From positions 3,348,001 through 3,412,000 of the forward strand of contig NZ_CP007220.1 in assembly GCF_001632805.1 (NCBI RefSeq): a stretch of DNA of 64,000 nt, in the 5' to 3' direction. The translations under genes and the position numbers were made by a program. The first letter of the stretch is position 1, and each line of letters opens with the position of its first letter. A model generated the notes under the pieces. It ran no database searches. It was not told the origin of the DNA and worked only from the letters and a program-made list of their open reading frames with translations. This DNA is from Mycobacteroides chelonae CCUG 47445. Lineage in GTDB: Bacteria; Actinomycetota; Actinomycetes; Mycobacteriales; Mycobacteriaceae. Positions 15,898-58,090 of the stretch are shown one piece after another.

Positions 15898-15898
15898 A

Positions 15899-31075: not shown

Positions 31076-31090
31076 ACGCGCACCTGGGGA

Positions 31091-32029
31091 TCAGGTGTGG
31101 CTGTTGAGATATCCCCCGCGCCGGAAGTACTCGTGGCCGCTGTGCTCGTTGCCATCGGCGTCTCGGATGCGGGTGATCACCAGCCCGCGGTTACCCACGC
31201 GGTAGGCATCAGCGCCACACACCACCACCCCGCCTTCTTCTTGCACGATCACCCGCCCCGGCGTACCGCCATAGCGGGCCTCGGAAATCCGCGCCTCCAA
31301 AACCTCAATACGCCCGCCCTCATAGAAAGTGAACGCCCGCGGATACGGATCCGACAACGCCCGCACAAACCGCTCCAGATCCTCGGCCGGCCAACCCCAA
31401 TCAATCGCACTGTCACGCTCAGAACGCTTATGGCAGTACGTGCGCTCCGCCTTGTTCTGCGGCCGCCACAGCGCCTCACCGGACTCCAACGCACCCAGCG
31501 CCTCAGCCAAAACCCCCGGAATCAGATCCATCCCCCGCAACACCAACTCGGTGCCGGTATCAGCCGGACCGATCGGCAGGGAATGCTGCACCAAAATGTC
31601 ACCGGTATCCAAACCGCTATCCATACGATGCACCGTCAACCCGAACTCGGACTCACCACTGATCAACGACCACAAAACAGGCGAGAACCCAGTAAATTTC
31701 GGCAGCAACGAATCATGAAAATTCAGCGTGCCATGCGGCGGGAAATCATAGAGCTCCACCGGCATCCGGTTATACCAACTATTGACCACAATGACATCAG
31801 GCTCAGCACCCTTAACCAATTCGATGGTTTCAGCATCCACCCGCGTCGCCAAATGCACCGGAATACCGTGCTCACGCGCAAGCTCATCAACCGGCGCCGA
31901 CCAAATCGCCTTATACGCTTCCTCACTCGAGGGATGCGTAACCGCCAGCACCACCTCATGCCCCAGATCGATCAACGCCTGCAAAGTCCGATAACCCCAG
32001 ACCTGATACCCAAACGACACGACACGCAC
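31091..32029 (-). CDS. FxbA-like formyltransferase of the metallophore cluster
   Basis: The 312-residue protein is a 10-formyltetrahydrofolate-dependent formyltransferase. The catalytic set is visible: Asn103 and His105 in LNFHDSLLPKFTG and Asp144 in LDTGDIL, with a C-terminal FMT-like domain (GTPGRVIVQEEGGVVVCG). Its position in an iron-regulated NRPS-PKS locus recalls FxbA, the formyltransferase of exochelin synthesis in M. smegmatis, rather than housekeeping Fmt. It starts GTG at 32029 with AAGGGG upstream. Codon use is unlike its neighbours, strongly favouring G or T in third positions, suggesting a separate origin. A 91-bp gap separates it from the methyltransferase, so it may have its own promoter. 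Confidence 0.82.
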   Translation of the reverse strand: MRVVSFGYQVWGYRTLQALIDLGHEVVLAVTHPSSEEAYKAIWSAPVDELAREHGIPVHLATRVDAETIELVKGAEPDVIVVNSWYNRMPVELYDFPPHGTLNFHDSLLPKFTGFSPVLWSLISGESEFGLTVHRMDSGLDTGDILVQHSLPIGPADTGTELVLRGMDLIPGVLAEALGALESGEALWRPQNKAERTYCHKRSERDSAIDWGWPAEDLERFVRALSDPYPRAFTFYEGGRIEVLEARISEARYGGTPGRVIVQEEGGVVVCGADAYRVGNRGLVITRIRDADGNEHSGHEYFRRGGYLNSHT

Positions 32030-32120
32030 TACACGACCCCTTAGCTTTTAAGCGCTGGTCAGGGGCTTGAGCCCTTGCCAACACGGAGGATGCGGACCTA
32101 GATGGTGGCGCGCACCAGGT

Positions 32121-32921
32121 TTACGTTTTCAGATGTGCCACAACTGGCAGGACGGCGCGCAGCGCCGGAACCCGAAGGAACAGTGGCTTAAGCACATTCA
32201 GGGTTCCGTGGACTGCACCGAAACTCCGCACATCGACGCTTGAAATGCCCCCATGCCATTGCTGCAGTAGTGGGGCGATGTCGTCCCGCTTGATTCCCCA
32301 TGGCGCTGGCGGAAATTCGTAGTTTTCAGTCGGCCGGTAACCCTTGACCATCTTCTGGGATATGGCCGGCGAGATCGTGTCGAAAACGATTTCCACACCA
32401 GGGAATCTGTCGATGATGGCAACCAGCAGCTGTCTCACCTGCTCTTCGGGGAGGAACATGAGAAAGCTTTGTGCTGTGATGAGAACGGGCCCGGGCCCTA
32501 CCTGGTCAAACCACGACACGTCGCGAGCATCGGCCGCGACGTAACGACACCGTTCGGTAGGAGCCAGGAATTCTCCCCGCACCGCAATCACTTCTTCGAG
32601 ATCGACACATACCCAAGAAACCGTTCCGTTGTCGAGACGATGAAACTGAGTCTCCAGTCCGGCGCCCAGCTCAACGATTGTGCCGCTGGGGTTCTCGGTC
32701 AGCCACTTACGCACCACGGTGTCGAAGAGACGAGATTTCTCGCCGTGCAATCCGGTCTGGTCTTTCCCGAATTTGCTTTCAAAAGGATAGTCGACCGCTT
32801 CGAACAGCTCGACGCATTGTGGATCCTTCAGGACTCCATCGGGCCGTTGCGCTTCGTTGGCGCGGGTATACAGCGTCCACATCGCCGTCTCGGCTACACC
32901 AGTCAGATCGACCTGTGCCAT
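32121..32921 (-). CDS. LCM/Ppm1-type class I SAM-dependent O-methyltransferase
   Basis: The 266-residue protein resembles the leucine-carboxyl-methyltransferase/TcmP O-methyltransferase group: an early TLYTRANEAQRP segment, motif I TIVELGAGLETQFHRL, WVCVDLEEVI and AQSFLMFLPEEQV. Members typically methylate carboxylates or hydroxyls of small molecules. ATG at 32921 is chosen because GAGGAG lies seven bases upstream. It follows the last megasynthase by 63 bp on the same strand, so it is probably a tailoring enzyme of the pathway, possibly masking a carboxyl or hydroxyl group. Confidence 0.8.
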   Translation of the reverse strand: MAQVDLTGVAETAMWTLYTRANEAQRPDGVLKDPQCVELFEAVDYPFESKFGKDQTGLHGEKSRLFDTVVRKWLTENPSGTIVELGAGLETQFHRLDNGTVSWVCVDLEEVIAVRGEFLAPTERCRYVAADARDVSWFDQVGPGPVLITAQSFLMFLPEEQVRQLLVAIIDRFPGVEIVFDTISPAISQKMVKGYRPTENYEFPPAPWGIKRDDIAPLLQQWHGGISSVDVRSFGAVHGTLNVLKPLFLRVPALRAVLPVVAHLKT

Positions 32922-32984
32922 GTCATCACTCCTCAAATCAGTACAGAAAGAAAAATCACTACATGTAAGAACTCACCTGAGTGC

Positions 32985-35900
32985 CTATGGTGCGCGGCGA
33001 CGGCGACGCGCCTCCTTGCGGATCCGGGCGCGGTCGCTACCCACGCCCGGGTTGGATTCGCTCACCGTGCCGGGCTCGGGATTGCTTGGCTCGGTATCGA
33101 TCTCGCTACTCGACAGATACGCCGCCAGGCTCGACACCGTCGGATAGCGGAACAAGTCGACAAGGGCTATCGGCCGACCGAACTCCTCCTGCACCAACCT
33201 CTGCGCAAGGGCCAGCAGTACCGAGTTCCCTCCGATATCGAAGAAGCTGTCGGTCACTCCGAAGCTGTCAGATCCGAGCACCTGTCGCCAGATCGCCGAA
33301 ACCCGCCGCTCGGTGTCGTCACGCGCAGCCACCCACTGACGAGCCACACCTGCCGACTGGACCCGCGTGGGCACGATGCGGTCATATCTGTCGCGTACTG
33401 GCACATCTGGAAACTCTGGCGCGGCCTGCTTCAGATCTGCCACAAGCACCTGGCCTGCCGGCGCCACACCGCTCAACCGGGCACGGATCGCCGACTTGGT
33501 GTCATCCAGACCGACCAGCACGTGGGGCACATCGTGGGCGAGCGCAACCAGCAGCGAGTTCAGCGCTTCGACGCGGCCTACAACACGGTATCCACTGGCC
33601 CGGGTGCCCTCCAGATGCTCCACCTGAGCCGACATCCCCACGCGGTCCCACATCGTCCACGCAATACTGTGCGCGCTGATACCGCTGCGGCGCTGGTACA
33701 GGGTGAAGGCGTCCAGATAGGCGTTTGCGGCCGAGTACCCGCCGACGGTGGATCCGCCGAAGAATCCGTTGACCGACGAAAAGGATACGAAGCGAATACC
33801 TTTTCGGCGCAAGGCAATATGGTGCAGGACGCGAGCTCCGGCAACCTTCGCCGTCGAGATATCCGTGAGATCGGACTCTGTCGTGGTAGCCAACGGTTGC
33901 TCGCGATACGCGCCGGCCAGATGCCAGATGCCAGACAGCTGGATGCCCCAGCGATCCTCCGCCGACGTGACCGCGTCCCATACCTGATCGGCATCGCGTA
34001 CGTCGGCGACCTCGAACCGGACCGCCTCGTCGCCCGCGATATCGCGTAACCGTTGGTAAGCCGCGGATTGCCGCTCATCTGGATCGCGGTGTCCTACGAG
34101 TAGCACCCGTGCGCCGAAGCGTTCTATCAGCAGCCGGGCCAGCTCATAGGCGAGTCCGCCCAGACCTCCACTAATCAGGTGCAGACCCCCAGAAGGAATC
34201 GCCACACCAGCAGTGGGCTCATCGGGCAGCCGTTCCAGCCCCTTCACCCAGCGAGCACCGGCCCGATAGGCAACCTCAATGTCCTTGGTGGAGTAGCCCA
34301 GTTCACCTGCCACGTGGTCGGCGCCGGCAGCCTGATCTGTGCGATCCAGGTCGACAAAGCGCACACGTAACCCAGGCATTTCGGCTACCGCACTGCGCAG
34401 CAGCACGGGAATCGGAGCGAGCCCAGGATCGGCCTCGTCCGTATCGGTGACCTGCTCGATGCCGCTGCCGATGACATACAGCGCCGGTGGCGTTCCATCG
34501 CCCCGCTCTTCGTCAAAGACAGTTCGGACTATGCGGACCACATCGAAAACACCGACCGGCAATAGTTCTGGGGAACTGTCGGCGATATCACCCTGTGCTC
34601 GCGGTGCGGCGAGGTACACCACGGTACGAATTGCTGTTGTTCCGGAAACCGAACTCAACCCCGCGTCGATGTCCGCCACGGTGGCACGCACCACGCGAAC
34701 GCCCTGCGCGGTCAGCCGGTCTGCCAATTGTGCGCCAAGGTTCCCCGATTCGCCGATAATCAAAACGGCGCCGTCAATCGGTGCACTGGGCCGGAGTCGG
34801 TCACGCCGGTGCCACATCGGACGGAAGAACCAGTTTGGCAGGGAGTTCGCGGACGCGCTGGACGTCTGTACCCTGCGCACGATATCGGCGAACTCACCGT
34901 CATCGAACCGTTGTCTCAGCAGGCTCCGCTGAATCTTTCCGATATCGGTTTTCGGAATACTCTCCGGCGGAACGGGAATGACTAGATCAGGATTTGGGCC
35001 CACCGCCAACACGCGGCTACGGACATCGGCGAGGACCTCCTCGTCCACCGCCCCGGACTGGGGGCTGAACACGATCGCCAGAACGTCGGTATCGCTGCCC
35101 GGCGGCCGTACCGCGATCGCAGCGGCATAGCTGCTGATCACTAGCGGGGATTCTTCGACCGCGGACTCGATCGCGTGGCAGCTGTAGTTCACGCCGTTGA
35201 CGATGATGATGTCCTTGGCGCGACCGGTGAGCGTGAGTGCACCGCCGTGAATCCGGCCAAGGTCGCCCGTGTCGAACCAGCCGTCGGCAGTGAATGCCTC
35301 CCCGGTGCGCTCTGGGTCGGCATAGTATCCGCGCGTAACGGTGGGCCCGCTGATCTGCACTCGCCCAACATCGCCGACGGGAACGGCCGTGTTGTCCATG
35401 TCGACGACACGTATGCGCGTGCCGTGGATCGGCTTTCCGAGTTCGGTGAATTCATCGGTGTCGGTGGTGGTTTCCACCGAAAAGTTCTGGGAGAAAACCA
35501 CACCCGACGATGTCTCCGACATCCCCCATGACGGCCGCATCGCGGTGCGCGGTAAGCCGGAATGCTCCAGCATGCGCAGGAATCGGCGTGCGATGCGTGG
35601 GACGATTGCCTCGCCACCGTTGAGAATGAACCGCAAGCACGTCAGGTCGAATCGGTCGGCGTTAGGCGCCTCCGCGAACCGATCGGCGATCAGGCCGAAC
35701 GCGAAATTGGGGGCCCATGTGTTGGTCACGCGGTAGCGGTCAACGATGGTCAGCCACCGCAGTGGATCCGCCAGCACCCATGAGGTGGCAGCGTGTACCT
35801 GCTGACAACACACGTACACATCCTGAAGATGGGACATGACGATGCCGCCGACATGCTCGAGCGGCATCCAGTTGAACGAGATATCCGCCGGGGCGAACGC

Positions 35901-38900
35901 ATTCGTCTGCGCGGTCGCCGCCGAGCGGCTCAGGATGTTGCGATGCGTCAGCTGCACGCCCTTCGGCTGTCCCGTGCTACCAGAGGTCAGCAAGAGCAAT
36001 GCGACCGCTTCGGGATCGGGCTCATGGTGCGCGGCATCTGGGTCGTGTGCCAAAAGATCGCCGATCGGGACTACCCGCGCCGCCTGGTGTACCGGAGGCT
36101 GCCCGGCCACGTTGATGATCAATGGCTGGTTGAGTGCGCTCCAGGCCGTTGCCGCCTTCTCGGCGCCGCCAACCGCGTTCGGGGCCACCGGCACCGGCAC
36201 GATGCCGCCGAGGAAACATCCCCAGATCGCCGCCACAAACTCGTCGTTGCGGGACAGGTGAACAATCGCCAAATCTCCTGGAACAAGTCCCGCGGCCCGT
36301 AGTCCCCCAAGCACACGCCGCGCGGCATCGAGTACCGCCGCGTACGTCAGTGTGCGCTCGGCACCCGATTCGTCAAGAAAGACCAGCTCTGTCGTGGACG
36401 CATCACGTGCCGCGCGGACGAGCGCATCGGGTAGCGACGCCACGACAGGCACGACCGCCGGCCCGCCATCGAGCATGGATAGCTCGTGGACATCGCGTTG
36501 TGCCGCGGACACTAGCGGCGCCTGCTTGGGCGGTGGCGCTGGATCGCCGACAAGAATGCGCGGCGTGTCGGCGATATCGGGCACAACCTGGATCTGGGTG
36601 GCCTCGGGTAGCCGCGCCGACCACCGGGCAATCAGCTCGTCATCGATCACCGGCAATCGGTATAGCGCCGCGATGTCGAGCGCTCCGGTCGTGGTCACCG
36701 GCAGTGCGGCAACAGGAACGAATGCACGCGGCACCAGCGACGGTGGCAGCACGATGCGTGCGAATTCCGACAACCGTCTCGAGGAGATCGGTGCGGAAGT
36801 TGCTACATAGGCCACCAACTCGGTGGTGCCGGAGATGGTTCGGCGTGACAGTACCGCGCAGTCGTCGATCAATTCGTGCTCCATCAGCACTGCGTCGACA
36901 GTTGCCAGGTCCGCCCAGCGGTGACCGTCCCATGCGCGTCCACGAGAAGAATGTGCGATCTCCACCGAGGAGTCCCTGCGCATGCGTGCCGGAATCCCAG
37001 TAGGGAGCACAGCCTCGCCCGGTCTCCCGACGCATAGTTCCCCCAAGACGCCCGGGGGCGCCAGTCGGCGGTCGGCGGTCAGTACTACCTCCGGAACCGG
37101 TTCCGGATCAACCAGATTGACACTGCCAGAGTGCAATAAGGTGACGAGAATGCCAGCGAGATAGCTATCCAGAAGCCCTATCGACGCATCAGTGTTCAGT
37201 GAATCGGGCGCACCGGCAGGGCGGGCGTCGCCGGTTCCCAGTTGCGCCACGGCGGCATCGTCCACAACGAATGCGGGGGCCAGCTCCCGCAGCGAGCGCT
37301 CCCGGTACGGGGCCGGCAGCGATGTGGGTAACCACGCGACACGGCGTGCACCGGCGGATACCGCCGCTACCAACGCCGCCACGAGGTCTGGTCCGCGTTC
37401 GAGCGCGAGCACAACCGTCCCGCCATGGGCACCCGACATCGCCGCAGCCAATCGCACTGCAGTCCTGCGCAATTCGGTGTGGGTAAGCTCCACGTGGCCA
37501 TCGACGACCGCCACAGAGCTCTCGACATGCTGAAGCACCGGCGCCAAGCTCTGAGCCACACGTGCTTCGTGCGCACCGAGCGGCAGGCAGTCGATCGCCA
37601 GGTGCGGCGACGCGATCGCCGCGCGTAACAGCGCGGTGTAGTCGTCGCGCATTTGCTCCATCGTCGCCGCATCGAATAGTTCGGTGCTATAGACGAACTG
37701 CACCCCGATACTTTCCCCGAGGGGCCAGAAGTGCAGTTCCACATCGGCTCGAGTGGTGCCTGTCGGCACCCCGACAAAGGACACGGGCGTTCCCGCGAAA
37801 TCAAGGTCAGCCGGAGGCGGGCTTTGCATCGCGAACAGCACGGCGACCATCGGATTGCGTCCGGGAAGACGCGCAGGAGCGACCTCGTCGATGATCTGTT
37901 CAAGTGGCAGCTCCTGGTGCTCGTACGCACCCAAAGTCACCTCGCGGACATGGCTGACCAACTCCGCGAACCCGGCGGAGGGATTGATCCTGGCACGCAA
38001 CGGAATTGTGTTCACGAACAGCCCGATGAGCGCCGAGACCCGGTGGTCTTCCCGATTCGCCATCGGAGCGCCGACCACCTGATCATCTGAGCCGCTGTAG
38101 CGGTACAACAGTGTGTAGAACGCCGCGAGCAGCGTCGCAAAGACGGTCACGTCCATATCCCGCCCGAATGCGGCCATCGCTGCCGTGTCCGAGGGCGACA
38201 AGGTGAAGTCTAGGGTGGCACCCTGGAAAACGTTGTCCAATGGCCTGTCTCGATCGAACGGAAGCGCAGGCGAGCTCAGCTCGCCGGCCAACTGCGACCG
38301 CCAGTACGCGAGATGGCGCTCACGCGCGGGCCCGGACATCACGTCGTGCTCTTGTTCTGCCAGGTCGCCGATCTGGTATTCCAGCGGCGGCAGTGCCGCT
38401 GGAATACCTGTTACTTCGGCCCCGTACAGCTGGCGCAGCTCGTCGCACAGCACACCGATGGACCAGCCGTCGACGATGATGTGATGCATCGCCACCACCA
38501 ACAGGAACTCTCCGTCCCGCAGGTCGAGTAGATGCGCCCGCAGCAACGGTCCGGCACTCAGGTCGAACGGCGCGCACACGAGGTCGAGGACTGCCGCGCG
38601 CACCTCGGGACGCTGTATCGGCGGCACAGACTGCGTACTGGAACAATCGATTTCCTTGAGCGGCACTGTAATAACCGTGTCAGCGGCCACCGCCTGCATC
38701 ACTTCGCCGTCGACCTCGACAAAAGTTGTGCGCAGGATCTCATGTCTGGAAACCATTTCGGCGAGGGCGCGTCGCAGTGCGTCCGGACGTACCGCACCGC
38801 GAAAATGCAGAACAATCGGCACGTTGTAGTAATGGCTGTCCGGGTCCAGTCGACTCAGGAACCACATTCGCTGCTGGGCGAATGACGTCCGGAAGAGGAG

Positions 38901-38948
38901 GATCTCCTCCCCCGATGTGGATGCGGGAAGGTAGTCGATAGTGGTCAC
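32985..38948 (-). CDS. Hybrid NRPS: C, decayed A, acyl-ligase-type A, KR, PCP
   Basis: This 1987-residue megasynthase has an unusual domain order. A condensation domain (1-455) has MHHIIVDGWS at 154-163. Residues about 475-800 resemble an adenylation domain that has lost the SGSTG, A4 and A5 cores (pseudo-A). A second, intact adenylation domain of acyl-ligase/FAAL style follows (about 835-1350): TSGSTGQPKG at 988, NWMPLEHVGGIVM, SWGMSETSSG, TGDLGRI, GRAKDIIIVNG and Lys1338 in IGKIQ. Next is a ketoreductase (about 1375-1830) with a structural half, GGLGGL near 1594, Lys1701, Ser1725, Tyr1738 and Asn1742. Last comes a carrier domain (Ser1909 in FFDIGGNSV) and an Arg-rich tail. There is no terminal thioesterase or reductase. 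The layout suggests loading and reduction of a keto acid. Its GTG overlaps the PKS stop by 4 nt. Confidence 0.88.
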   Translation of the reverse strand: MTTIDYLPASTSGEEILLFRTSFAQQRMWFLSRLDPDSHYYNVPIVLHFRGAVRPDALRRALAEMVSRHEILRTTFVEVDGEVMQAVAADTVITVPLKEIDCSSTQSVPPIQRPEVRAAVLDLVCAPFDLSAGPLLRAHLLDLRDGEFLLVVAMHHIIVDGWSIGVLCDELRQLYGAEVTGIPAALPPLEYQIGDLAEQEHDVMSGPARERHLAYWRSQLAGELSSPALPFDRDRPLDNVFQGATLDFTLSPSDTAAMAAFGRDMDVTVFATLLAAFYTLLYRYSGSDDQVVGAPMANREDHRVSALIGLFVNTIPLRARINPSAGFAELVSHVREVTLGAYEHQELPLEQIIDEVAPARLPGRNPMVAVLFAMQSPPPADLDFAGTPVSFVGVPTGTTRADVELHFWPLGESIGVQFVYSTELFDAATMEQMRDDYTALLRAAIASPHLAIDCLPLGAHEARVAQSLAPVLQHVESSVAVVDGHVELTHTELRRTAVRLAAAMSGAHGGTVVLALERGPDLVAALVAAVSAGARRVAWLPTSLPAPYRERSLRELAPAFVVDDAAVAQLGTGDARPAGAPDSLNTDASIGLLDSYLAGILVTLLHSGSVNLVDPEPVPEVVLTADRRLAPPGVLGELCVGRPGEAVLPTGIPARMRRDSSVEIAHSSRGRAWDGHRWADLATVDAVLMEHELIDDCAVLSRRTISGTTELVAYVATSAPISSRRLSEFARIVLPPSLVPRAFVPVAALPVTTTGALDIAALYRLPVIDDELIARWSARLPEATQIQVVPDIADTPRILVGDPAPPPKQAPLVSAAQRDVHELSMLDGGPAVVPVVASLPDALVRAARDASTTELVFLDESGAERTLTYAAVLDAARRVLGGLRAAGLVPGDLAIVHLSRNDEFVAAIWGCFLGGIVPVPVAPNAVGGAEKAATAWSALNQPLIINVAGQPPVHQAARVVPIGDLLAHDPDAAHHEPDPEAVALLLLTSGSTGQPKGVQLTHRNILSRSAATAQTNAFAPADISFNWMPLEHVGGIVMSHLQDVYVCCQQVHAATSWVLADPLRWLTIVDRYRVTNTWAPNFAFGLIADRFAEAPNADRFDLTCLRFILNGGEAIVPRIARRFLRMLEHSGLPRTAMRPSWGMSETSSGVVFSQNFSVETTTDTDEFTELGKPIHGTRIRVVDMDNTAVPVGDVGRVQISGPTVTRGYYADPERTGEAFTADGWFDTGDLGRIHGGALTLTGRAKDIIIVNGVNYSCHAIESAVEESPLVISSYAAAIAVRPPGSDTDVLAIVFSPQSGAVDEEVLADVRSRVLAVGPNPDLVIPVPPESIPKTDIGKIQRSLLRQRFDDGEFADIVRRVQTSSASANSLPNWFFRPMWHRRDRLRPSAPIDGAVLIIGESGNLGAQLADRLTAQGVRVVRATVADIDAGLSSVSGTTAIRTVVYLAAPRAQGDIADSSPELLPVGVFDVVRIVRTVFDEERGDGTPPALYVIGSGIEQVTDTDEADPGLAPIPVLLRSAVAEMPGLRVRFVDLDRTDQAAGADHVAGELGYSTKDIEVAYRAGARWVKGLERLPDEPTAGVAIPSGGLHLISGGLGGLAYELARLLIERFGARVLLVGHRDPDERQSAAYQRLRDIAGDEAVRFEVADVRDADQVWDAVTSAEDRWGIQLSGIWHLAGAYREQPLATTTESDLTDISTAKVAGARVLHHIALRRKGIRFVSFSSVNGFFGGSTVGGYSAANAYLDAFTLYQRRSGISAHSIAWTMWDRVGMSAQVEHLEGTRASGYRVVGRVEALNSLLVALAHDVPHVLVGLDDTKSAIRARLSGVAPAGQVLVADLKQAAPEFPDVPVRDRYDRIVPTRVQSAGVARQWVAARDDTERRVSAIWRQVLGSDSFGVTDSFFDIGGNSVLLALAQRLVQEEFGRPIALVDLFRYPTVSSLAAYLSSSEIDTEPSNPEPGTVSESNPGVGSDRARIRKEARRRRRAP

Positions 38949-47808: not shown

Positions 47809-47816
47809 GACTTGAT

Positions 47817-50800
47817 CTACCGCCTTTGTCGTTGCTGTGATAGGCGCTGCACGCGGGCATCTCGCCCACGCTCAGCTCGACTGCGCGCAGCGACGAGACC
47901 GCCGCTACCGCTTACTTCAGATTTGGCGCCCTGATCGCGCGCGCCGTTCAGATACGTGGCGAGCTCCGCGACGGTCGGGTGTGCGTACAGGTCGAGCAGC
48001 GATACCGAAAGCCCAAGCTGCTCCGAAAGCCTGGCTTGAACGCGAGCCAGTAACAGCGAATGACCGCCGATGTCGAAGAAGTTGTCGTCAACGCCGATAC
48101 GGGGAACCTTGAGCACCGCGAGCCACAAGTCAACCAGCACACGTTCCATCGCGTACCGCGGCTCGAGGTAGGGAACGATCGCGGCACTCACTTCGACGGG
48201 AATTCGTTGCACCGCAGCGCGATCGATCTTCCCTGACGGCAGTTGCGGCAGCGCGTCGAGAATGGTTCCGGCCGGGGGTATTAGGTGCTCCGGCAGCCGC
48301 GCACGTAACCAGTCACGCAGCTGCAGCCAGGTCAGCGCGGGGTCCTCGCAGGCACAGTACGCAACCAATCGATCGCCTTGCGCCATGACTGCCGCGCGAC
48401 GGATGGCCGGGTGTGCGGTGAGCGCGTTCTCGATCTCTTCCGGCGCGATCCTGCGGCCCCGGATCTTCAACTGATTGTCCACTCGCCCAAGGAACTCGAT
48501 GGTGCCGTTAGGCAGGAAACGTGCCCTGTCCCCGGTGCGATAGATGCGAGCGCCGGGTGCGCCCGATACCGGATCGGCGACAAACCGCTCGGCGGTGCGG
48601 GCCGGGTCTTCCACATATCCGCGCGCGAGCTGCACCCCCCCGATGTACAGCTCTCCGGATACACCCGGCGGAACCGGCCGGAGAAATCTATCGAGGATGA
48701 AGGCCTGGTTGTTGGCAATCGGCGTACCGATGGTCACACCGTGCCTGGATGAGCCGGCCCGGTAGACCTCGTATGTGCACGCCACAGTCGCCTCGGTGGG
48801 CCCGTACCCGTGATACATGGGAATCTCACAGCGAGTTAGGAACCGCTCGAGAAGCTCTGGGCTCAGCGCCTCTCCACCCGTCCACACCGAAGCCAGCGAG
48901 CGAGTCGCCTCGGTGAACTCGGGCCGGTCCAGCATCGGGTCAAGTAGCGACGGCACCAGGTCGATGAACGTGACACCGGTGCGTGCGATCAGTTCGAGCA
49001 AGTATGCCGGATCTGACTCGGCTCCCACCTTGGGCAGAACCACCGCCGCACCGCAGACGAGCGGGAGGAAGATCTCGTTGATTCCCATGTCGAACCCGAG
49101 CGACGACTTGTGCAGGGCAGCGTCGTCGACCCCGAATCCGAGGACATCGGCTTGCCACAGCAGTCGGTTGCAAATTCCGGCATGAGTCACCATCACCCCC
49201 TTCGGAGTGCCGGTGGAACCGGACGTGAAGACGACATAGGCGAGCTCGGCCATCTGGACGCCCGGCGCTGGATCGTTGTGGTGAGTTGCGTCCCATGGTT
49301 TCTCGTCGAGATTCAGCACTGGTATCTCGAGGCTTGGCAGTCGCGTCGCAGGATCGCCATGGGTAAGCACCGCCGCGAGGCGAGCGTTTGTACACACCTC
49401 CGCTATCCGGCTCGCCGGCCAAGCAGGCTCCAACGGGACGAACGCGGCACCGGCCTTCAACACGGCCAGTAGCGCCACCACGAGGTCCGCCGACCGGTCC
49501 ATGTTGATTCCGACAAGGCTTCCACTACCGATTCCGAGCGAGCGAATCGACGAGACCAACTGCCCGGCAAGCACATCCAGTTCACCGTAACTAAGCTGAC
49601 CATCCTCGGTGACGACGGCGATGGCATTCGGGTTCTGTTGCGCCTGTCGCTCAAACAATGTGTGTAGCGGGATATCGACGAGGTGCCGGGTGTCCCCGGT
49701 GGCATTCCAGTCGCAGAGGATGTGCTGTCGTTGCTGGTCGGTGAGCAAAGGCAGATCACGCACGCTGCACTCCGGATTCACCACCCCATGGGCCAACACT
49801 GTGGCGAGGTGCTCCAGGACTTGCTGTATGAATTCCGGTGCGTATTTGTCGGTTCGGAAAGTAGCGGCCAACGCCGCTCCGTCGACCAGGTCAATGGCGA
49901 GGTCAAACATCGGTGCCGGGTTGGGCAATCCGAGGTCGGTCGTCGTCGTTCCGGCCAAACTCAACTCACTCGTAACCGGCCGAGTTGCCGCGAACATAAC
50001 CTCGAACAGTGGTGAGCGGCCCGTTGTGCGTTGCGGCGCCACTCTTTCGATGACTGTCTCAAAAGGAATGTCACGGTTGTCGTAAGCTTCGAAAAAGGCT
50101 GATCGAGCGCGACCCAGCAAGTCCAGGAAGGTCGTCTGACCATCGACGTTCAGCCGTAGTGCAAGGGTGTTCGTGAAATTGCCCCACACGCCTTCGACTT
50201 CGGACGCATCACGGACCAGCGCCGGAATCCCAATCACCAAATCCGTTGCCTCTGTGTATCGATGCAGGACCGTAGCCAACCCTGCAAGTACAATCGTGTA
50301 GGGCGTGGCCTTGTGAATTCGCGCTAGATCTCGCAGGCCCGCAACGGTGCTGTCTGGCAGCGCATGCCGGTATCGCCCGCTGGCCGTAGCGTGCGACTCC
50401 GGAGACTGAGTCGTCGCCGGAAAGCCTACGGTGGGCGGTAGCGGGGTGAGTCGGTCAACCCAATATTTCAGCTGGTTGTCGAGATGACCATGCTGCAGTC
50501 GTTGTTGCTCCCACACCGCATAGTCTGCGTATTCGAGGCCCGGAGCCGCTGGCGCAGCGCCAGTCTGGCCAGTCTCGAAGGCGTATTGCGCAGATAAGTC
50601 AGCGAACAACAAATCCCAGGTGATCTCGTCCGCCGCGATGTGATGCAGTACCAGAATCAGAACATGCACATGCGCTGAGACACGCAAAAGCTCGACGCGC
50701 AGCGGAGGGTCTGAGGCGAGATCGAAAGGGCGGTCAGCGATCTCCCGCGCGAGAGCCGCGATCGCGTCCTCCAGCATCGCCGACGCCTTGTCATCGATGT

Positions 50801-51185
50801 CAACGACTGAGAGCGCGATATCCCCGGTCTGCTCGATCAGCTGTATCAGCTCACCGTCGGGGCCATGGGTGTAGCGAGTCCGCAGAATCGCGTGCCGACC
50901 GAACAATCGGATCACACTCGTGCGCAACGAATCAAGATCGAGTGGACCATCAATCCGTAGGCCGACCAGCATGTTATATGCCGTGCCCTCCGGAAAAAGG
51001 GCTTGTGCGAACCACATCCGACGCTGTGTCGAAGACAACGGAACCACTGCCGTGCGCGATCGCGCCTGAATGTTCGTGCTCCGGGCACTCGAGGACGCAT
51101 CCGTGAGCCCACGTTCGGTCAGCACTGCCCGCAACAACCGCAAACGCTCTGCCGAGGTCGAATTGCCTGCTCGGGACGACGACAT
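47817..51185 (-). CDS. First NRPS of the cluster: C-A-PCP
   Basis: The 1122-residue NRPS is first in transcription order. The condensation domain (about 45-480) has the active motif HHIAADE (181-187). The adenylation domain (about 505-995) has FTSGSTGTPKG, GYGPTEA, YRTGDRAR and Lys986. Reading the ten specificity positions by eye against GrsA PheA gives D M N D W G G V A K; the leading Asp implies an alpha-amino acid, but I know no matching substrate. The PCP serine is 1043 (FFDIGGHSL). A basic Arg/Gln-rich tail follows. Because it leads the operon, its C domain may be a starter domain that N-acylates the first residue. ATG at 51185 has GGGGAGG upstream. Confidence 0.9.
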   Translation of the reverse strand: MSSSRAGNSTSAERLRLLRAVLTERGLTDASSSARSTNIQARSRTAVVPLSSTQRRMWFAQALFPEGTAYNMLVGLRIDGPLDLDSLRTSVIRLFGRHAILRTRYTHGPDGELIQLIEQTGDIALSVVDIDDKASAMLEDAIAALAREIADRPFDLASDPPLRVELLRVSAHVHVLILVLHHIAADEITWDLLFADLSAQYAFETGQTGAAPAAPGLEYADYAVWEQQRLQHGHLDNQLKYWVDRLTPLPPTVGFPATTQSPESHATASGRYRHALPDSTVAGLRDLARIHKATPYTIVLAGLATVLHRYTEATDLVIGIPALVRDASEVEGVWGNFTNTLALRLNVDGQTTFLDLLGRARSAFFEAYDNRDIPFETVIERVAPQRTTGRSPLFEVMFAATRPVTSELSLAGTTTTDLGLPNPAPMFDLAIDLVDGAALAATFRTDKYAPEFIQQVLEHLATVLAHGVVNPECSVRDLPLLTDQQRQHILCDWNATGDTRHLVDIPLHTLFERQAQQNPNAIAVVTEDGQLSYGELDVLAGQLVSSIRSLGIGSGSLVGINMDRSADLVVALLAVLKAGAAFVPLEPAWPASRIAEVCTNARLAAVLTHGDPATRLPSLEIPVLNLDEKPWDATHHNDPAPGVQMAELAYVVFTSGSTGTPKGVMVTHAGICNRLLWQADVLGFGVDDAALHKSSLGFDMGINEIFLPLVCGAAVVLPKVGAESDPAYLLELIARTGVTFIDLVPSLLDPMLDRPEFTEATRSLASVWTGGEALSPELLERFLTRCEIPMYHGYGPTEATVACTYEVYRAGSSRHGVTIGTPIANNQAFILDRFLRPVPPGVSGELYIGGVQLARGYVEDPARTAERFVADPVSGAPGARIYRTGDRARFLPNGTIEFLGRVDNQLKIRGRRIAPEEIENALTAHPAIRRAAVMAQGDRLVAYCACEDPALTWLQLRDWLRARLPEHLIPPAGTILDALPQLPSGKIDRAAVQRIPVEVSAAIVPYLEPRYAMERVLVDLWLAVLKVPRIGVDDNFFDIGGHSLLLARVQARLSEQLGLSVSLLDLYAHPTVAELATYLNGARDQGAKSEVSGSGGLVAARSRAERGRDARVQRLSQQRQRR

Positions 51186-51331
51186 TCGTATGCCTCCCCT
51201 GTCCACTAAAGCCGCATAATCACAGCGGTTTTTGCATCTTCGGGTTCGCACAGCATTGGACGCAGAGCCGAAAATGCTTCGGAGCGAATAGAATTCACCC
51301 ATACACCGCAGATAGATTAGCCCATCTTTAC

Positions 51332-51350
51332 TTTGGCTAGGCTAGCCTAT
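51332..51350. promoter_or_regulatory. IdeR-like iron box 1
   Basis: TTTGGCTAGGCTAGCCTAT matches 15 of 19 positions of the mycobacterial IdeR consensus TTAGGTTAGGCTAACCTAA. It lies midway between the divergent NRPS operon and irtA, so iron-loaded IdeR could repress both directions. Confidence 0.75.
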
Positions 51351-51359
51351 ATCAATTCG

Positions 51360-51378
51360 TTTGGTTAGGGTGAGCTAA
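51360..51378. promoter_or_regulatory. IdeR-like iron box 2
   Basis: TTTGGTTAGGGTGAGCTAA matches 15 of 19 positions of the IdeR consensus and begins 28 bp after box 1. It ends 2 bp before the first in-frame GTG of irtA, favouring the later ATG at 51420 as the translation start. Confidence 0.65.
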
Positions 51379-51419
51379 GTGTGTCACGCATGCGAGCAGC
51401 ACGAAAGAGGATGCAAAAC

Positions 51420-54023
51420 ATGGGTAGAGGTTTCCAGGGTGCGGTGCTGCGCGGGCTTGGGGCGCGTGATCACGTAGCCACTGTGGTCGATATCAGTCAG
51501 GTTGCACCGAATTGTGTGCGGCTGACGATGTCGGCGCCCACTCTTTTCGAGGACCTGCTACACACGCCGGCCGAATGGCTGCGGTTCTGGTTCCCTGATC
51601 CCGAGGGTGGCGCCACTGAGCATCAGCGGGCGTACACGATCGTCTCCACGGATGCCGAGGTCGGCGAGTTCGCGATCGATGTGGTGATCCACGAGCCCGC
51701 CGGGCCCGCCTGCCGGTGGGCGGGGGCGGCCCAGCCCGGAATGACCATTCCGGTAGTGGCTTTCGGCTCAGCACGTTTTGAGGTTCCCGAGGATCTTCCG
51801 GCCGGATTCCTGCTGATCGGCGATTCGGCGTCTATCCCGGCGATCAACTCCATCCTGGCCGCGCTGCCCGCCGATGTGGATGTCGAGGTCTATCTGGAAC
51901 GCCACAGCCCCGACGATGAGCTCATCCCGCTGACCGAGCATCCCCGGCGGGTTCTGCACTGGGTGGACCGCGTCGATGAAACCTCACTGGCGGGCGCGAT
52001 CGAGGCCCGTGACTGGTCCAACTGGTACGCCTGGGCCGGCTCGGAGGGGGGCTCGCTCAAACATCTGCGCAAGCGCCTCAAAGAACAATTCGGATTCCCC
52101 AAAGCCGACGTACATGCCGCCTCCTACTGGACCTTCGGCCGCGCCATGGGCAGCCGCCGCGGAGACACCCAGGCTCCGCCGACTTTGGACGCCAAGACCT
52201 CCAGCTTGGCCACTCCCTCCGCACCAAAAACACTGGCCGACAACCCCATACCGGTATCCGGTAGCGCGATCCCCCGGGGTCGCTGGCGTTCGCAGGCGGC
52301 GAAGGAGTTGTTGGCGCCGGTCAAGAAGCAGATGATCGCCGGTGGTGTGCTGCAAGCGATCATCACCATGGTCGAGCTGGCACCGTTCGTGGTGCTCGTC
52401 GAGCTCACCCGCCAGCTGCTGGCCGGAGCCGACCAATCCCGGCTATGGCACACCGGATTCATCTTCCTGACACTGCTGGTACTCGGCGCCGCGCTCGGCA
52501 TGGCTCTCACACTGTGGCTGCACGTTGTTGACATCCGATTCAGTACAAGCATCCAGCGCCAGTTGTTGGACAAGCTTTCTCGGGTTCCGTTGGGGTGGTT
52601 CACGCAACGCGGTTCGGGATCGGTCAAGAAGCTGATTCAGGACGACACCCTGTCGCTGCACTATCTGATCACTCACGCGATCCCCGATGCGGTGGCCGCC
52701 GTCGTGGGGCCGGTGGCGGTGCTGATCTACCTCTTCGTCGTCGACTGGCGCCTGACCCTGTTGCTACTGGTGCCCATTCTGATCTACATCGTCACGGCCG
52801 CTGTGCTGATATTCCAGAGCGGCCCGAAGATGATCGAGGCCTCGCGCTGGAGCGAACGGATGAGCGGAGAATCGGCCGCCTATCTTGAAGGCCAGCCGGT
52901 GATCCGCATTTTCGGCGGAGCCTCAGCGTCCTCGTTCAAACGCAAGCTCGACCTGCATCTCACCTTTCTCAACGAATGGCAGTGGCCGTTCATTGGCAGG
53001 AAGACCTTTATGGATCTTGTTACCCGGCCGACGACGTTCCTGTGGTTGATCGCCGGGGCCGGAACGCTGTTGGTCGTCGCGGGGGCCATGGAGCCCACGA
53101 CCCTGCTGCCATTCCTGGTGCTCGGCACCACGTTCGGCACCCGCCTACTGGGAATCGCGTACGGACTGAACGATGTTCGCGGTGGTCTAGGGGCCACACG
53201 CCGTATCGCCGTCGCCCTCGAGGAAACCGAACTCAGCATCACCGAAGCAAAAGCAGCGGCCGATAGTGGCTCATCTGTGTCGTTTGATGCGGTGACGTTT
53301 GGGTATCGGCCGGGGGTGCCGGTTATTCATGGTGTGGATCTGAGGTTGCGGCCGGGAACTGTGACGGCGCTGGTGGGTCCGTCCGGCTCGGGTAAATCGA
53401 CGCTGGCTTCCCTGCTAGCACGTTTCCATGACGTCGACGGCGGCGCTATCTGCATCGATGGCACCGATATCCGCGCCCTGAGCGCCGATGAGCTCTACAC
53501 CAAAGTCGGATTCGTGTTCCAGGACGTACAACTGGTCGCCGGAACCGTCCGCGAAAACATCGCACTGGCCCGCCCCGAAGCCACCGACACCCAGATCCAC
53601 ACCGCCGCCCGCGACGCACAGATCCATGAACGAATCCTGCGGCTACCCAACGGCTATGACACCGTCCTGGACACCAACACCCAACTGTCCGGCGGCGAAA
53701 AACAACGCCTCACCATCGCCCGCGCCCTGCTGGCCGACACCCCCATCCTGATCCTGGACGAAGCCACCGCCTTCGCCGACCCCGAATCAGAATATTTGGT
53801 GCAACAAGCCCTGGGCCGGCTCGTTCACAACCGCACCGTGCTCGTCATCGCCCACCGACTACACACCATCGCCGACGCCGACCAGATCGTGGTCCTGGAC
53901 CAGGGCCACCTCGTAGAAACCGGCACCCACACGCAGCTGCTATCCAACAACGGGCGCTACCGGCGCTTGTGGGACGCACGCCTGCAAGAACCCTCGAGCG
54001 TCCTTGCCGGAGAGAACATCTGA
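51420..54023 (+). CDS. irtA: IrtA-like siderophore importer: FAD-binding SIP domain fused to ABC half-transporter
   Basis: The 867-residue protein closely follows M. tuberculosis IrtA, the inner-membrane importer and reductase of carboxymycobactin. The N-terminal siderophore-interacting domain (1-260) has [24 protein letters not shown] and [10 protein letters not shown]. Six hydrophobic segments follow (about 300-600), then a nucleotide-binding domain with [19 protein letters not shown] and [15 protein letters not shown] at 51420 is preferred because AGAGG precedes it and because MGRGFQG matches family starts; GTG at 51381 abuts an iron box. The stop overlaps irtB as TGATG. Codon use changes visibly inside the gene near 53,270 and again near 53,480. 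Confidence 0.93.
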
Positions 54024-55771
54024 TGCTGACCCACCTGATCCGCCTCATCCCACCCGCACACCGCAACTCCCTCTACACCTACAGCGCACTCTCAGTGCTA
54101 TCCGTAGTACTTCGCGCCGCGGGCTGTCTGCTGCTCGTGCCGCTGCTCGGCGCCCTGTTCAGCACCACCCCCACCGACGCACTGCCCTGGCTCGCCGTGC
54201 TCACCGCGGTCACCGTCGGCGGCTGGATCGTGGACACCGCGCTGGCCCGCATCGGCTACCGCATCGGATTCGCCCTGCTCAACGACTCACAACACCAAGT
54301 CGCCGACCGGCTCACCCACATCCCACTGAGCTGGTTCACCGCCGAACGCACCGCCATGGCCCGCCAAGCCATCTCCTCCGGCGGCCCCGACCTCGTCGGA
54401 TTCATCGCCAACCTACTGACCCCACTGATCGGCGCAGCACTACTACCGGCAGCCATCACCATCGGATTGTTCTTCGTCTCATACAAACTCGGCATCGCCG
54501 CCGCCATCACCTTGCCACTCATAGTCGGCGCGCTACTGGCCAGTATCCGCATCGTGCGCACCGCCGACGAGGCAGACACCAAGGCACACAGTGCACTGAC
54601 CGAACGCATCCTGGAATTCGCACGCACCCAAGCCGCCCTACGAGCCAGCCGACGCGTGAACCCCGCCCGCAGCCAGGCCGGCGAAGCCGTCGCGACAGCA
54701 CGTGGTGCGACCATGCGGCTCTTGCTCTTTCAGATCCCCGGTCAGCTGCTGTTCAGCATCGTCAGCCAGATCACCCTCATCCTGCTCGCCGGCACCACCA
54801 CAGCCCTCGCGGTGCGCGGTGAGATCGGAGCACCCGAAGCCGTCGCACTCATGGTCATCGTGGTCCGATTCCTGGAACCATTCACCGTCCTGGCGGGCCT
54901 GGCCGGCGCCGTCGAAAACTCGCGCGCCATATTCGAGCGTCTCAACACCATCATCACCACCGACGCCGCCGATCAGCCCGGAGACGCCGTCGCATCCCCC
55001 GACACCCCCGCCCCACGCATCGAATTCCGCAACGTCACCTTCCGCTACGACAGCACCAGCGAACACGTCCTCAACGACATCAACTTCATCCTGGAACCAG
55101 GTGCCACCGCCGCCGTCATCGGGCCATCTGGATCCGGAAAGAGCACCATCCTCGCCCTCATCGCCGGGCTGCAACAACCAGAAAGCGGCCAAATCCTCAT
55201 CGACGGAACCGATGTCGCCACAATGGACACCGCCAGCCGCCGCGCCCTGGTCAGCATGGTCTTCCAGCATCCGTACCTCTTCGATGCACCCATCGGCGAC
55301 AACGTCCTAGCTGGACACCCCAACGCCACAGACCACGAAACACACCAAGCCATGACACTGGCTCGCGTCGACGAGATCATCGAACGCCTGCCCGATGCCG
55401 AACAGTCACGTGTCGGCGAAGCCGGCACCGCACTATCCGGCGGTGAACGCCAACGCGTCAGCATCGCCCGAGCACTCATCAAACCCGCCCCGGTCCTGCT
55501 CATCGACGAAGCCACCAGCGCCCTGGACACCGAAAACGAAACCGCAATCACCGACGCCATCAACAACGACCCACGCCCCCGCACCAAAATCATGATCGCC
55601 CACCGGCTCAGCGCAATCCGCAACGCCGATCACGTGCTCTTCATCGACAACGGCCACATCATCGAACAAGGCTCCATCACCGAACTCAGCTCTCTCGGAG
55701 GCCGTTTCTCAGAATTCTGGCGCCAACAAGAATCCACCACCGGATGGCGCATCACCACAAACGCCAACTAG
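54023..55771 (+). CDS. irtB: IrtB-like siderophore importer ABC half-transporter
   Basis: The 582-residue half-transporter forms the heterodimer with IrtA that brings ferri-siderophore into the cytoplasm. An N-terminal membrane domain of six segments (about 15-300) precedes a nucleotide-binding domain with [30 protein letters not shown] and IAHRLSAI. ATG at 54023 overlaps the irtA stop. Codons are unusually rich in C and A at third positions compared with the NRPS-PKS genes, pointing to a different evolutionary source. A weak hairpin (CGGCT-CGGCC-AGCCG, 55776-55790) lies just past the stop, without a T run. Confidence 0.93.
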   Translation: MLTHLIRLIPPAHRNSLYTYSALSVLSVVLRAAGCLLLVPLLGALFSTTPTDALPWLAVLTAVTVGGWIVDTALARIGYRIGFALLNDSQHQVADRLTHIPLSWFTAERTAMARQAISSGGPDLVGFIANLLTPLIGAALLPAAITIGLFFVSYKLGIAAAITLPLIVGALLASIRIVRTADEADTKAHSALTERILEFARTQAALRASRRVNPARSQAGEAVATARGATMRLLLFQIPGQLLFSIVSQITLILLAGTTTALAVRGEIGAPEAVALMVIVVRFLEPFTVLAGLAGAVENSRAIFERLNTIITTDAADQPGDAVASPDTPAPRIEFRNVTFRYDSTSEHVLNDINFILEPGATAAVIGPSGSGKSTILALIAGLQQPESGQILIDGTDVATMDTASRRALVSMVFQHPYLFDAPIGDNVLAGHPNATDHETHQAMTLARVDEIIERLPDAEQSRVGEAGTALSGGERQRVSIARALIKPAPVLLIDEATSALDTENETAITDAINNDPRPRTKIMIAHRLSAIRNADHVLFIDNGHIIEQGSITELSSLGGRFSEFWRQQESTTGWRITTNAN

Positions 55772-55889
55772 ATTCCGGCTCGGCCAGCCGAATGCAGCCT
55801 GATCGTCGCGCACCTCGACGTAATGATCACTGCTCAAACGGATTCGATTCGTCATCCCAGGCAATCCCGCAACCGGAGGTCTCGACAAA

Positions 55890-55908
55890 TTAGGTAAGCC
55901 AATGCTAA
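55890..55908. promoter_or_regulatory. IdeR-like iron box 3, upstream of the PPE gene
   Basis: TTAGGTAAGCCAATGCTAA matches 14 of 19 positions of the strict IdeR consensus, with the outer half-sites TTAGGT and CTAA intact. It lies about 130 bp before the PPE start in a 267-bp gap, giving the PPE gene its own candidate iron control. Confidence 0.6.
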
Positions 55909-55964
55909 TTTACTCGCGCTGATGCGTTGTCGGGCGAGCCTTCAAATCATGGAAAGGCTGTAAG

Positions 55965-56033
55965 TTGAGCAATCAGGAACGGGCAGTTCAGCCCGAATCC
56001 AGCAAGGCCGAGCACATGAGCGCCGGGGGCTAG
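55965..56033 (+). CDS. Possible 22-residue leader ORF upstream of PPE
   Basis: A TTG codon follows GGAAAGG by seven bases and opens a frame reading [22 protein letters not shown] before TAG. The stop lies 5 bp before the PPE ATG, whose own ribosome site is poor, so translational coupling is plausible. The peptide resembles nothing I recognise. It could also be chance. Confidence 0.35.
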
Positions 56034-56038
56034 CGGGG

Positions 56039-57571
56039 ATGTCGGCGCCCATATGGATGGCGTTTCCCCCGGAAGTACATTCGGCACTGCTCAGCGCAGG
56101 CCCGGGCCCAGGCCCGATGCTGGCTTCCGCAGCGCAGTGGCAAGCACTATCAACCGAGTACGCCACGGCAGCAACGGAGTTGACCCAGCTGCTGAGCGCG
56201 GCCGCGGCGGGGGCATGGCAGGGACCCAGCGCCGCCCAATATGTGGCCAGCCATACGCCCTACTTGGCCTGGCTGACTCAGCAGAGCGCAGCGAGCGCCT
56301 CCAACGCTGCGCTGCAGGAGGCAGGCGCCGCGGCCTACACCACGGCGTTGGCGGCCATGCCGACCTTGCCCGAACTGGCCATGAACCACACGATTCACGG
56401 CATCTTGGTGGGCACAAACTTCTTTGGGATCAACACGATCCCCCTCGCACTCAACGAGGCCGACTATCTCCGCATGTGGGTGCAGGCCGCCACCACCATG
56501 GGTGTCTACCAAGGGGTTTCGAGTGCCGCGGTGGCGTCGGCGCCTCCGGCGACTCCCTCTCCGCCCATCATGGAGCCCGCCGGCGCGATGTTGCGCATGG
56601 CTGACATGTCCGGGCTCGCAGCACAGGCCCAAGCCGCGGAAGCCGGTTCGGCACTGGACAGCAGCAACAGCGTTATCGATCAGCTGATGGATTTCTTCCG
56701 CGACCCGCTGGGCACGCTGATCCGAATCATCGGAGATTTCATCCGAAACCCGGGGGCGGCATTGGCCACCTGGCTGCCGTTCCTGCTGATGCTCGGTGTG
56801 ATGGCGTACCTGGTTTTTGCGCAGGTGTTTTGGTTGTTCTGGGCTGCGTTGCTCTCCGCACCACTGTGGCTGCCGCTACTGATCTTGGCGGCCTGGCAGT
56901 ATCTGCAGCCCCCCGCCGTCGAAGCACCGGCCGATGAAGTTCAGCCTGAGCTCCGCAATACCGCCCCCGTACAGCGCGAACACATAGAGTCCCTTCCTGC
57001 GATCGCGTTGGCGCCCACAGGTGTTCCGGTCCCCACTGGGACGGCACCTGCACCATCGGCCCCGGCGCCAGCTCCGGCGCCCACCACCGCAACGGCGGCG
57101 TTTACGCCATACCTCGTCGCCGTGAATCCCGAAGAACCGCCCGCCATTCGTTTCGGACCAACCCTCAATGAGGGCAGCAAGGCCCAGGCCCCGGCCTCCG
57201 GAGTCTCTGCGGCAGCCGCCGCGGCAGCATCTGCCCGGTCGCGAGCTCGGCGCAAACGTGGTGCGCGAGTGAAAGACCCAGCACCGCAGTACATGGACAT
57301 GAACGTCACGGTTGATGCCGACTACGGTGAGCCGCCCAGATCCCCGCAAAGCCAAAGCACCGCGTCAACCCGCGGCACTGGACAACTCGGGTTGGCCGGC
57401 ACCATCCCAAAGACCACCACCGCACCCACCGCGGCCGGGCTCGTCGCGCGCGAGAACGTCGGCAACGACACCGGTGCGATGGATGGCACCAGGACCACGC
57501 CGATGCTCCCGACCACATGGAGCACAGATCCCGATGAAACCCCCTCTCCGCCAACACCGGATGAGCACTGA
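56039..57571 (+). CDS. PPE4-like PPE protein (PPE-PPW subfamily)
   Basis: The 510-residue protein has a canonical PPE domain (Pro10-Pro11-Glu12; AWQGPSA near residue 62) very similar to the ESX-3-linked PPE4, with shared [19 protein letters not shown] and [11 protein letters not shown] strongly hydrophobic stretch (about 240-290, [15 protein letters not shown] and [19 protein letters not shown]) could insert in the outer membrane. The C-terminus contains [10 protein letters not shown] and PMLPTTW, the PPE-PPW end. In M. tuberculosis PPE4 with PE5 and ESX-3 is needed for siderophore-mediated iron use. Here no PE or esx gene accompanies it; it must pair with one elsewhere. Context and the iron box suggest uptake of the cluster's product. 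Confidence 0.9.
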
Positions 57572-58051: not shown

Positions 58052-58057
58052 GCATCT

Positions 58058-58090
58058 ATATTGCCGTAATAGCCTCCCTATGAGCAATAT
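58058..58090. promoter_or_regulatory. Inverted repeat ATATTGC-N19-GCAATAT in the Lrp/azlCD gap
   Basis: The arms are 58058-58064 and 58084-58090, centred between the divergent regulator and azlC. Spacing of two to three helical turns with AT-rich arms is compatible with an Lrp-type operator. Confidence 0.45.

Follow-up and report, generated by a model that had tools for sequence, protein, structure and literature searches.

A block of about 26.46 kb in the chromosome of Mycobacteroides chelonae CCUG 47445 joins a hybrid nonribosomal peptide synthetase (NRPS) and polyketide synthase (PKS) operon to its own copies of siderophore import genes, and we consider it probable that this block is an accessory, IdeR-controlled siderophore system working beside mycobactin. 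The block (31084..57543) lies within a window of 64,000 nucleotides, positions 3348001-3412000 of a genome assembled as a single contig of 5,029,817 bases; coordinates below are those of the window unless marked as chromosomal or given in Mb. The best reading of its genes is a siderophore system that is neither mycobactin nor exochelin, and a variant of the hybrid NRPS-PKS siderophores. The first-pass annotation had proposed a new class of siderophore, which is too strong because such hybrids are already known: mycobactin is one, and variochelin, cupriachelin, and crochelin are hybrid NRPS-PKS hydroxamate siderophores. For mycobacteria it would be, as far as our literature searches show, an undescribed third siderophore type; a survey by titles and abstracts gave no description of the locus among the matches listed, and no paper joining chelonae, irtB, and siderophore.

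The locus is delimited by its absence from a near relative (G088; one contig of 5,061,177 bases). By blastn, window 15903-31083 matches positions 3427010-3442189 of that contig at 98.7% identity and window 57544-64000 matches 3442202-3448658 at 98.0%, and only 12 bp separate the two flanks there. The missing block coincides almost to the base with the locus as annotated from gene to gene (31091..57571), leaving only the last codons of a PPE gene outside. Because G088 keeps roughly the last nine codons of this gene at the junction, and the C-terminal sequence is common to a M. salmoniphilum relative (P0242; not to M. abscessus P0246), loss in G088 appears more likely than gain in the source genome. 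In G+C content the block (0.632) is similar to its flanks (0.644 and 0.615). We found no transfer RNA in the 64-kb window and no direct repeats within either block edge, only one short palindrome; the longest word common to both edges is 8 bases in direct and 9 in inverted orientation, against a shuffled mean of 7.45.

Nine genes lie between a carboxylate reductase (27554..31075, plus strand) and an AzlC gene (58023..58859, plus strand). The minus-strand genes are transcribed in the order P4, P3, P2, and P1 (four megasynthases), then an LCM-type S-adenosylmethionine-dependent methyltransferase, and lastly an FxbA-like formyltransferase; irtA, irtB, and the PPE gene are on the plus strand, divergent from P4. 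The first-pass annotation had described these same components, with the megasynthases tightly coupled; each named gene is an open frame where it had been placed, and Pfam and PDB matches confirm the assignments. P4 (47817..51302, 1161 amino acids), the first gene of the operon, is an NRPS with condensation (C), adenylation (A), and peptidyl carrier protein (PCP) domains. P3 (43996..47808, 1270 amino acids) fuses an N-terminal thioesterase to a PKS module of ketosynthase (KS), acyltransferase (AT), and acyl carrier protein (ACP), as assigned by Pfam and motifs, and P2 (38945..43999, 1684 amino acids) is a KS-AT-methyltransferase-ACP module. P1 (32985..38948, 1987 amino acids) carries a C domain, a degenerate A domain, a keto-acid-type A domain, a ketoreductase (KR), and a PCP. 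P1 and P2 overlap by 4 bases, as do P2 and P3, and 8 bases separate P3 from P4. The methyltransferase (32121..32936, 271 amino acids) scores above the Pfam LCM cut-off and below that of TIGR00027, and the formyltransferase (31091..32029, 312 amino acids) has the Formyl_trans_N and Formyl_trans_C domains. All active-site motifs that we searched for were matched in the window proteins except A8 in P4, which our pattern missed but which can be recognised by eye.

That copies of irtAB and PPE4 share a block with the operon is the strongest argument for a siderophore product taken up by an Irt/ESX-3-type route; IrtAB and PPE4 are families with siderophore roles in mycobacteria. The IrtA paralogue (51381..54023, 880 amino acids; the true start may be 51411 or 51420) combines a siderophore-interaction domain with an ABC half-transporter (Pfam SIP, FAD_binding_9, and ABC domains), the composition of an IrtAB importer, and four of its five best PDB chains, at 1137.6-1154.3 bits, are named IrtA. 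The IrtB paralogue (53969..55771, 600 amino acids) has the Pfam ABC domains. The two proteins are 90.2% and 93.5% identical to a core IrtA (chromosomal 2252927-2255533) and core IrtB (2251179-2252978), and at the DNA level the block and core genes are 91.7% identical over 4342 bp. This identity begins at window position 51419, so the promoter is not shared. That the block IrtAB might be the cell's only mycobactin importer we rejected, given the other copy at 2.251-2.2555 Mb. The PPE protein (56039..57571, 510 amino acids) has a PPE-PPW C-terminus and a PPE4-like N-terminal domain (6uuj at 6.4e-67; PPE15 is next at 6.5e-23, among PDB chains only). It is 62% identical to a PPE protein encoded at chromosomal 2221643-2223148, and its relatives at 79-89% occur in M. 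salmoniphilum, M. abscessus, and others, the next group reaching at most 66%. Biosynthesis and import had been placed in one locus by the first-pass annotation and do share one presence/absence block; passage across the outer membrane by the PPE4-like protein would be a further, presumed function. Judged by sequence, the block is a biosynthetic core accompanied by copies of iron and formylation genes that the host has elsewhere.

IdeR-like boxes stand where control of such a system would be expected. We scanned the 64 kb, counting mismatches, with the 19-mer IdeR consensus, and used five first-order resampled windows as a control. Just three 19-mers have four or fewer mismatches, all on the plus strand and each with four: two in the divergent promoter between P4 and irtA (51332..51350 and 51360..51378) and one upstream of the PPE gene (55890..55908); the control windows had none in five of five. 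A degenerate IdeR pattern gave two matches (0.02 expected), at the first and third of these boxes and not at the second. No site in the window matches the plain consensus with three or fewer mismatches, so the boxes are imperfect. By comparison, the box in the genome's own mbt region has two mismatches and that of core irtA four. The earlier claim of iron regulation is thus upheld as to the position of the window's only three boxes, and remains a prediction as to their function.

The biosynthetic core has an orthologous counterpart in Nocardia jejuensis, where P4-P3-P2-P1-LCM occur in the same order at 61-70% identity (66% for LCM, which is at the same place). The specificity residues of P4, read by alignment, are DMNDWGGVA in both species, and the C domain motif of the window protein is HHIAADE. 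We compared the P4 A domain with 20 rows, representing 17 distinct A domains from fetched loci, the exochelin-type domains being added from tblastn positions. The exochelin genes of rapidly growing mycobacteria are named fxbA, fxbB, fxbC, and exiT, and we took the loci in G055 and G136 for exochelin by their content of an fxbA homologue, a hydroxylase, and an ABC gene. The P4 A domain is 69-71% identical to its N. jejuensis orthologue; beyond this, the exochelin-type loci come closest with their first A domains (42-46%), and the remaining 14 are at most 38% identical. The exochelin-type code is DINYWGGIG, which we take to specify N5-formyl-N5-hydroxyornithine. This likeness points to a hydroxamate residue at P4 and fits the presence of an FxbA gene in the operon, though agreement with the P4 code in five of nine residues is no proof.

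The other modules suggest two polyketide units and a hydroxy acid. The N-terminal thioesterase of P3 has the motif GHSMG, typical of editing (type II) thioesterases. No ketoreductase was found in P2 by Pfam, and the best PDB matches of its methyltransferase domain are CurJ (135 bits) and DisA (108 bits), both C-methyltransferases; in N. jejuensis P2 the KS patterns are unmatched, the motifs there being slightly different with the Cys and His present. In P1 the degenerate A domain (residues ~460-760) is without an A3 motif and is followed by the keto-acid-type A domain (~830-1360), the KR (1588-1768), and the PCP (1882-1945); a single A3 motif occurs in P1 of the window, of N. jejuensis, and of nine of nine further orthologues (12 orthologues listed). 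The second A domain has StsA (6ulw/6ulx) and McyG (4r0m) as its best structures. Like StsA it has replaced the residue equivalent to GrsA Asp235 (V1033) and the usual Pro (Met1143, at the StsA M415 position), and its KR lies ahead of the carrier domain; both changes are described for alpha-keto acid activation in the available part of a review (PMC11253843). The keto-acid A domain and KR therefore predict a hydroxy acid, a prediction that is not certain because McyG, listed as a Phe domain, shares both residues. P1 resembles the A-KR modules of depsipeptide synthetases (StsA, cereulide type) in arrangement and in the replacement of Asp235 and Pro (PMC11253843, in part), and differs from them in that a C domain and the remnant of another A domain come first and in standing in a siderophore-type locus. 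None of the four megasynthases has a C-terminal thioesterase or reductase by Pfam, which leaves the release step unexplained.

From these parts we infer a pathway, including its substrates, order, release, and iron-binding product. Since the locus contains no N-hydroxylase, the pathway must, as predicted, depend on one encoded elsewhere, and the candidate is a KtzI-type Lys/Orn hydroxylase (chromosomal 1980198-1981202, 1.98 Mb), 54-55% identical to the hydroxylases of the exochelin-type loci. This core enzyme of KtzI/exochelin type, 1.4 Mb away, would make N5-hydroxyornithine or a close relative, which FxbA would N-formylate and P4 would load as a formylated hydroxamate residue. P3 and P2 would each contribute a polyketide unit, that of P2 being C-methylated and remaining a ketone; P1 would activate an alpha-keto acid, convert this by its KR into a hydroxy acid, and join it through its C domain. 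The product would leave without a dedicated terminal thioesterase, by hydrolysis or Dieckmann-type ring closure, and LCM, a probable O-methyltransferase, would methylate it. The block IrtAB would re-import the ferri-form, helped through the outer membrane by the PPE4 paralogue, which would itself be a type VII (ESX-3-type) substrate. Only tentatively do we extend this to a third mycobacterial siderophore family, a formyl-hydroxamate with two polyketide units and a hydroxy acid, possibly released as an iron-binding acyl-tetronate, whose cassette recruited private copies of irtAB, PPE4, and the formyltransferase and so gained its own type VII-linked uptake by duplicating that of mycobactin. The 1.98-Mb gene is directly downstream of a GNAT-like gene, and no siderophore gene was recognised nearby.

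FxbA is the part of this scheme most readily removed. The locus could be a siderophore locus in which FxbA is a hitchhiker, a recently copied edge fragment, with an unformylated product and a different residue loaded by P4. We regard this as unlikely, with some weight behind it: fxbA is the outermost gene, its homologous DNA is a 992-bp segment starting at the block boundary (31083) that is 94.9% identical to the genome's own second copy and 98.7% to the G088 copy, and no FxbA match was found in the 10 kb after N. jejuensis P1. The gene is nevertheless intact and follows LCM on its strand after 91 bp; the P4 A domain is closest to those of the exochelin-type loci, which are also fxbA-bearing; and an fxbA orthologue (72%) does exist in N. 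jejuensis, on a different contig and accompanied by an NRPS, a hydroxylase-like gene, two IrtAB-related ABC genes, and three IdeR-like boxes of 4-5 mismatches. The second chromosomal copy (2.958 Mb) encodes a protein 98% identical to the block FxbA. It adjoins a 4020-amino-acid NRPS and an MbtH-like motif (L182:937-14315, ~2.946-2.959 Mb), and the product of that NRPS is possibly a formylated peptide. Matches to FxbA at 1e-120 were found in 32 of 148 genomes of the genus.

We give little credence to a metallophore for zinc or copper, or a metal-binding antibiotic, with IrtAB serving uptake or self-protection. Ketone/hydroxy-acid hybrid lines could conceivably bind other metals, and kupyaphores are a non-iron NRPS metallophore of mycobacteria; the IdeR-like boxes (Zur sites were not scanned), the siderophore-interacting flavin domain of IrtA, and the exochelin-like A domain all speak instead for iron.

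It is similarly improbable that the metabolite of the core is unrelated, that chance placed the core beside a duplicated irtAB-PPE iron module, and that the boxes serve irtAB and PPE only. Such a joining is suggested by irtAB and PPE being copies of genes elsewhere, and by a box region that is common to two divergent genes and so need not act on P4. Against it, the Nocardia operon also has an IdeR-like box upstream (four mismatches, L130:16709), with no irtAB or FxbA beside it within the stretch fetched. Furthermore, PPE relatives (80-89%) and P1 relatives (75-85%) occur in the same species, M. salmoniphilum and M. abscessus, and in one source the P1 and PPE relative clusters both have a longest contig of 94,711 bases, the linkage itself not being seen. 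The N. jejuensis operon is divergent to a standalone KS (L130:14650-16020), 49% identical to the standalone KS of the source genome's own mbt region; the Nocardia KS may be an extra member of the pathway.

Protein relatives suggest that the system extends beyond the source genome. P1 orthologues at 66-97% identity, 12 listed, come from Mycobacteroides, with M. abscessus and M. salmoniphilum among the species, and from Segniliparus rotundus and Nocardia brasiliensis, and the M. abscessus cluster (P0008) has 272 member sequences; the other 108 P1 relatives listed are at 34-44%. As judged by these relatives, the accessory system would occur in M. abscessus and M. salmoniphilum. Scans of genomes, in sets that overlap between scans, gave mostly distant matches. 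P3 at 1e-200 was matched in 62 of 148 genomes, but at 41-45% identity everywhere except in its own genome; P2 DNA at 0.001 was matched in 145 of 148, at 143 bits or less versus 5413 at home. P2 protein at 1e-280 was found in one of 100 genomes and LCM at 1e-95 in one of 200. A scan of genome contigs with P1 gave, among the best 80 of 86 loci, only one (L009) above 47% identity in its best segment and the other 79 at 24-47%. We rejected LCM homologues as a cluster marker in Nocardia, as 23 of the 24 found in 118 genomes are only 43-51% identical to the block LCM (L153-L178). Near 15 of these 23 (up to 20 kb each) there were no P1, P2, or P3 matches at 1e-30, and two of the 15 surroundings had an NRPS 28-39% like P4.

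The genome holds what appears to be a separate mycobactin system. Beside the core irtAB (2.24-2.256 Mb) are a salicylate synthase (TIGR03494, 569 bits, cut-off 325), an aryl-AMP-ligase-like gene (TIGR02275, 567 bits, below the cut-off of 724), a 1458-amino-acid NRPS, and an NbtG-type hydroxylase (~2.2496-2.2510 Mb; 468 bits to 4d7e, an L-Lys monooxygenase and presumably Nocardia NbtG). An MbtD-like PKS (719 bits, below the cut-off of 1150) is at 2.08 Mb, with further NRPSs at 2.08-2.10 Mb. The locus tags in the available text of a M. abscessus study likewise place irtAB, mbtI, and ESX-3 as neighbours and mbtB/C/F apart (PMC11792503). We dropped the 1.98-Mb hydroxylase (442 bits to 9nns, named MbtG) as the mycobactin lysine hydroxylase, because the NbtG-type gene adjoins the salicylate synthase and core irtAB. 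The earlier statement that salicylate activation and a lysine N-hydroxylase are wanting from the locus is borne out: the genome's own salicylate synthase, NbtG-type, and KtzI-type hydroxylases had no tblastn match in the window at 1e-5, and its aryl-AMP-ligase-like gene matched only the P4 and P1 A domains and the carboxylate reductase, at 26-36%. For the stated lack of an MbtH-like protein the support is narrower, none being found in the six frames of the window by a motif search only; the same search was empty in L119, L120, L215, and L216 and found one motif beside the second fxbA copy.

Comparison with known systems gives the same picture. The block resembles mycobactin and nocobactin in its hybrid NRPS-PKS logic, IrtAB import, PPE4 link, and IdeR-like control, and differs in the absence from the window of a salicylate synthase and an NbtG-type hydroxylase, and of an MbtH-like motif by the motif search only. 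It resembles exochelin in its FxbA (60-61% identical to those of the exochelin-type loci), its first A domain, and its IdeR-like boxes, which G055 and G136 also have. Exochelin is made by multi-module NRPSs of the FxbB/FxbC type without any PKS and has an ExiT-type ABC exporter. The block, in contrast, has a pair of PKS modules, one with a methyltransferase domain, as well as the keto-acid A-KR module and LCM; it is without the hydroxylase and the long A-first NRPS found in G055 and G136, and its ABC genes are IrtAB, only 26-30% identical to the ABC gene there. With variochelin, cupriachelin, and crochelin, to which we liken it by description only, it would share a hydroxamate amino acid and polyketide in one chelator; gene order, the keto-acid module, and the import machinery are expected to differ. 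Thus it is hardly conceivable that the locus is this species' exochelin or mycobactin cluster in disguise, and we reject this on gene content: fxbA, irtAB, NRPS, and PKS are all present in it, but the mycobactin genes stand at 2.24-2.256 Mb with the MbtD-like PKS at 2.08 Mb, and the exochelin-type hydroxylase, non-IrtAB ABC gene, and A-first NRPS are all absent. In this the earlier reading of the locus as neither of the two holds.

Several observations weigh against the accessory siderophore system we propose, and its main weak links are the hydroxylase absent from the block, the release step, and the membership of FxbA. The P4 code has just those five of nine residues in common with the exochelin code. 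No N-hydroxylase lies in the block, and the 1.98-Mb candidate is a core gene with a 98% copy in G088, which is without the block; no IdeR-like box with five or fewer mismatches was found in the 38 kb around it. The role of FxbA in the block may be accidental, because there is no FxbA beside the Nocardia operon and relatives lie near other NRPS genes. Among FxbA surroundings fetched in 16 genomes (14 places with close relatives, 73-100% identical, and the two exochelin-type loci), NRPS genes of other kinds were nearby at 12 of the 14, and the remaining two (L195 and L196) gave no NRPS match. The operon is also rare, seen just in its own genome in the overlapping sets of 148, 100, and 200 genomes, and an LCM above 60% identity occurs in one of 118 Nocardia genomes. 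Finally, the mbt, irt, and ESX-3 genes in Table 1 of the M. abscessus proteome study bear core locus tags only, for a strain that may or may not carry the block (PMC11792503, in part).

Other features of these genomes were noted along the way. Five further mycobacterial genomes carry FxbA relatives at 77-82% next to NRPS genes unlike those of exochelin (L187, L188, L190, L193, and L194; L184 is listed too). Within the window, a stretch of ~2.5 kb (13432-15902), between segments of more than 98% identity, is without a G088 counterpart aligned over 200 bases, and 11824-11891 matches the Rfam ASdes small RNA at 58 bits.

We suggest that this block, if it is the accessory siderophore system proposed here, bears on how relatives such as M. 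abscessus are seen to acquire iron. Siderophore iron uptake in M. abscessus is described through mycobactin in the available text of the proteome study (PMC11792503). A second, accessory system could account for differences between strains in how they grow when iron is limiting, and would be a complication for drugs against mycobactin synthesis. For mycobacterial outer-membrane transport, the paired core and block copies of irtAB and PPE4 offer a natural test of whether each copy of these proteins is suited to a particular siderophore.

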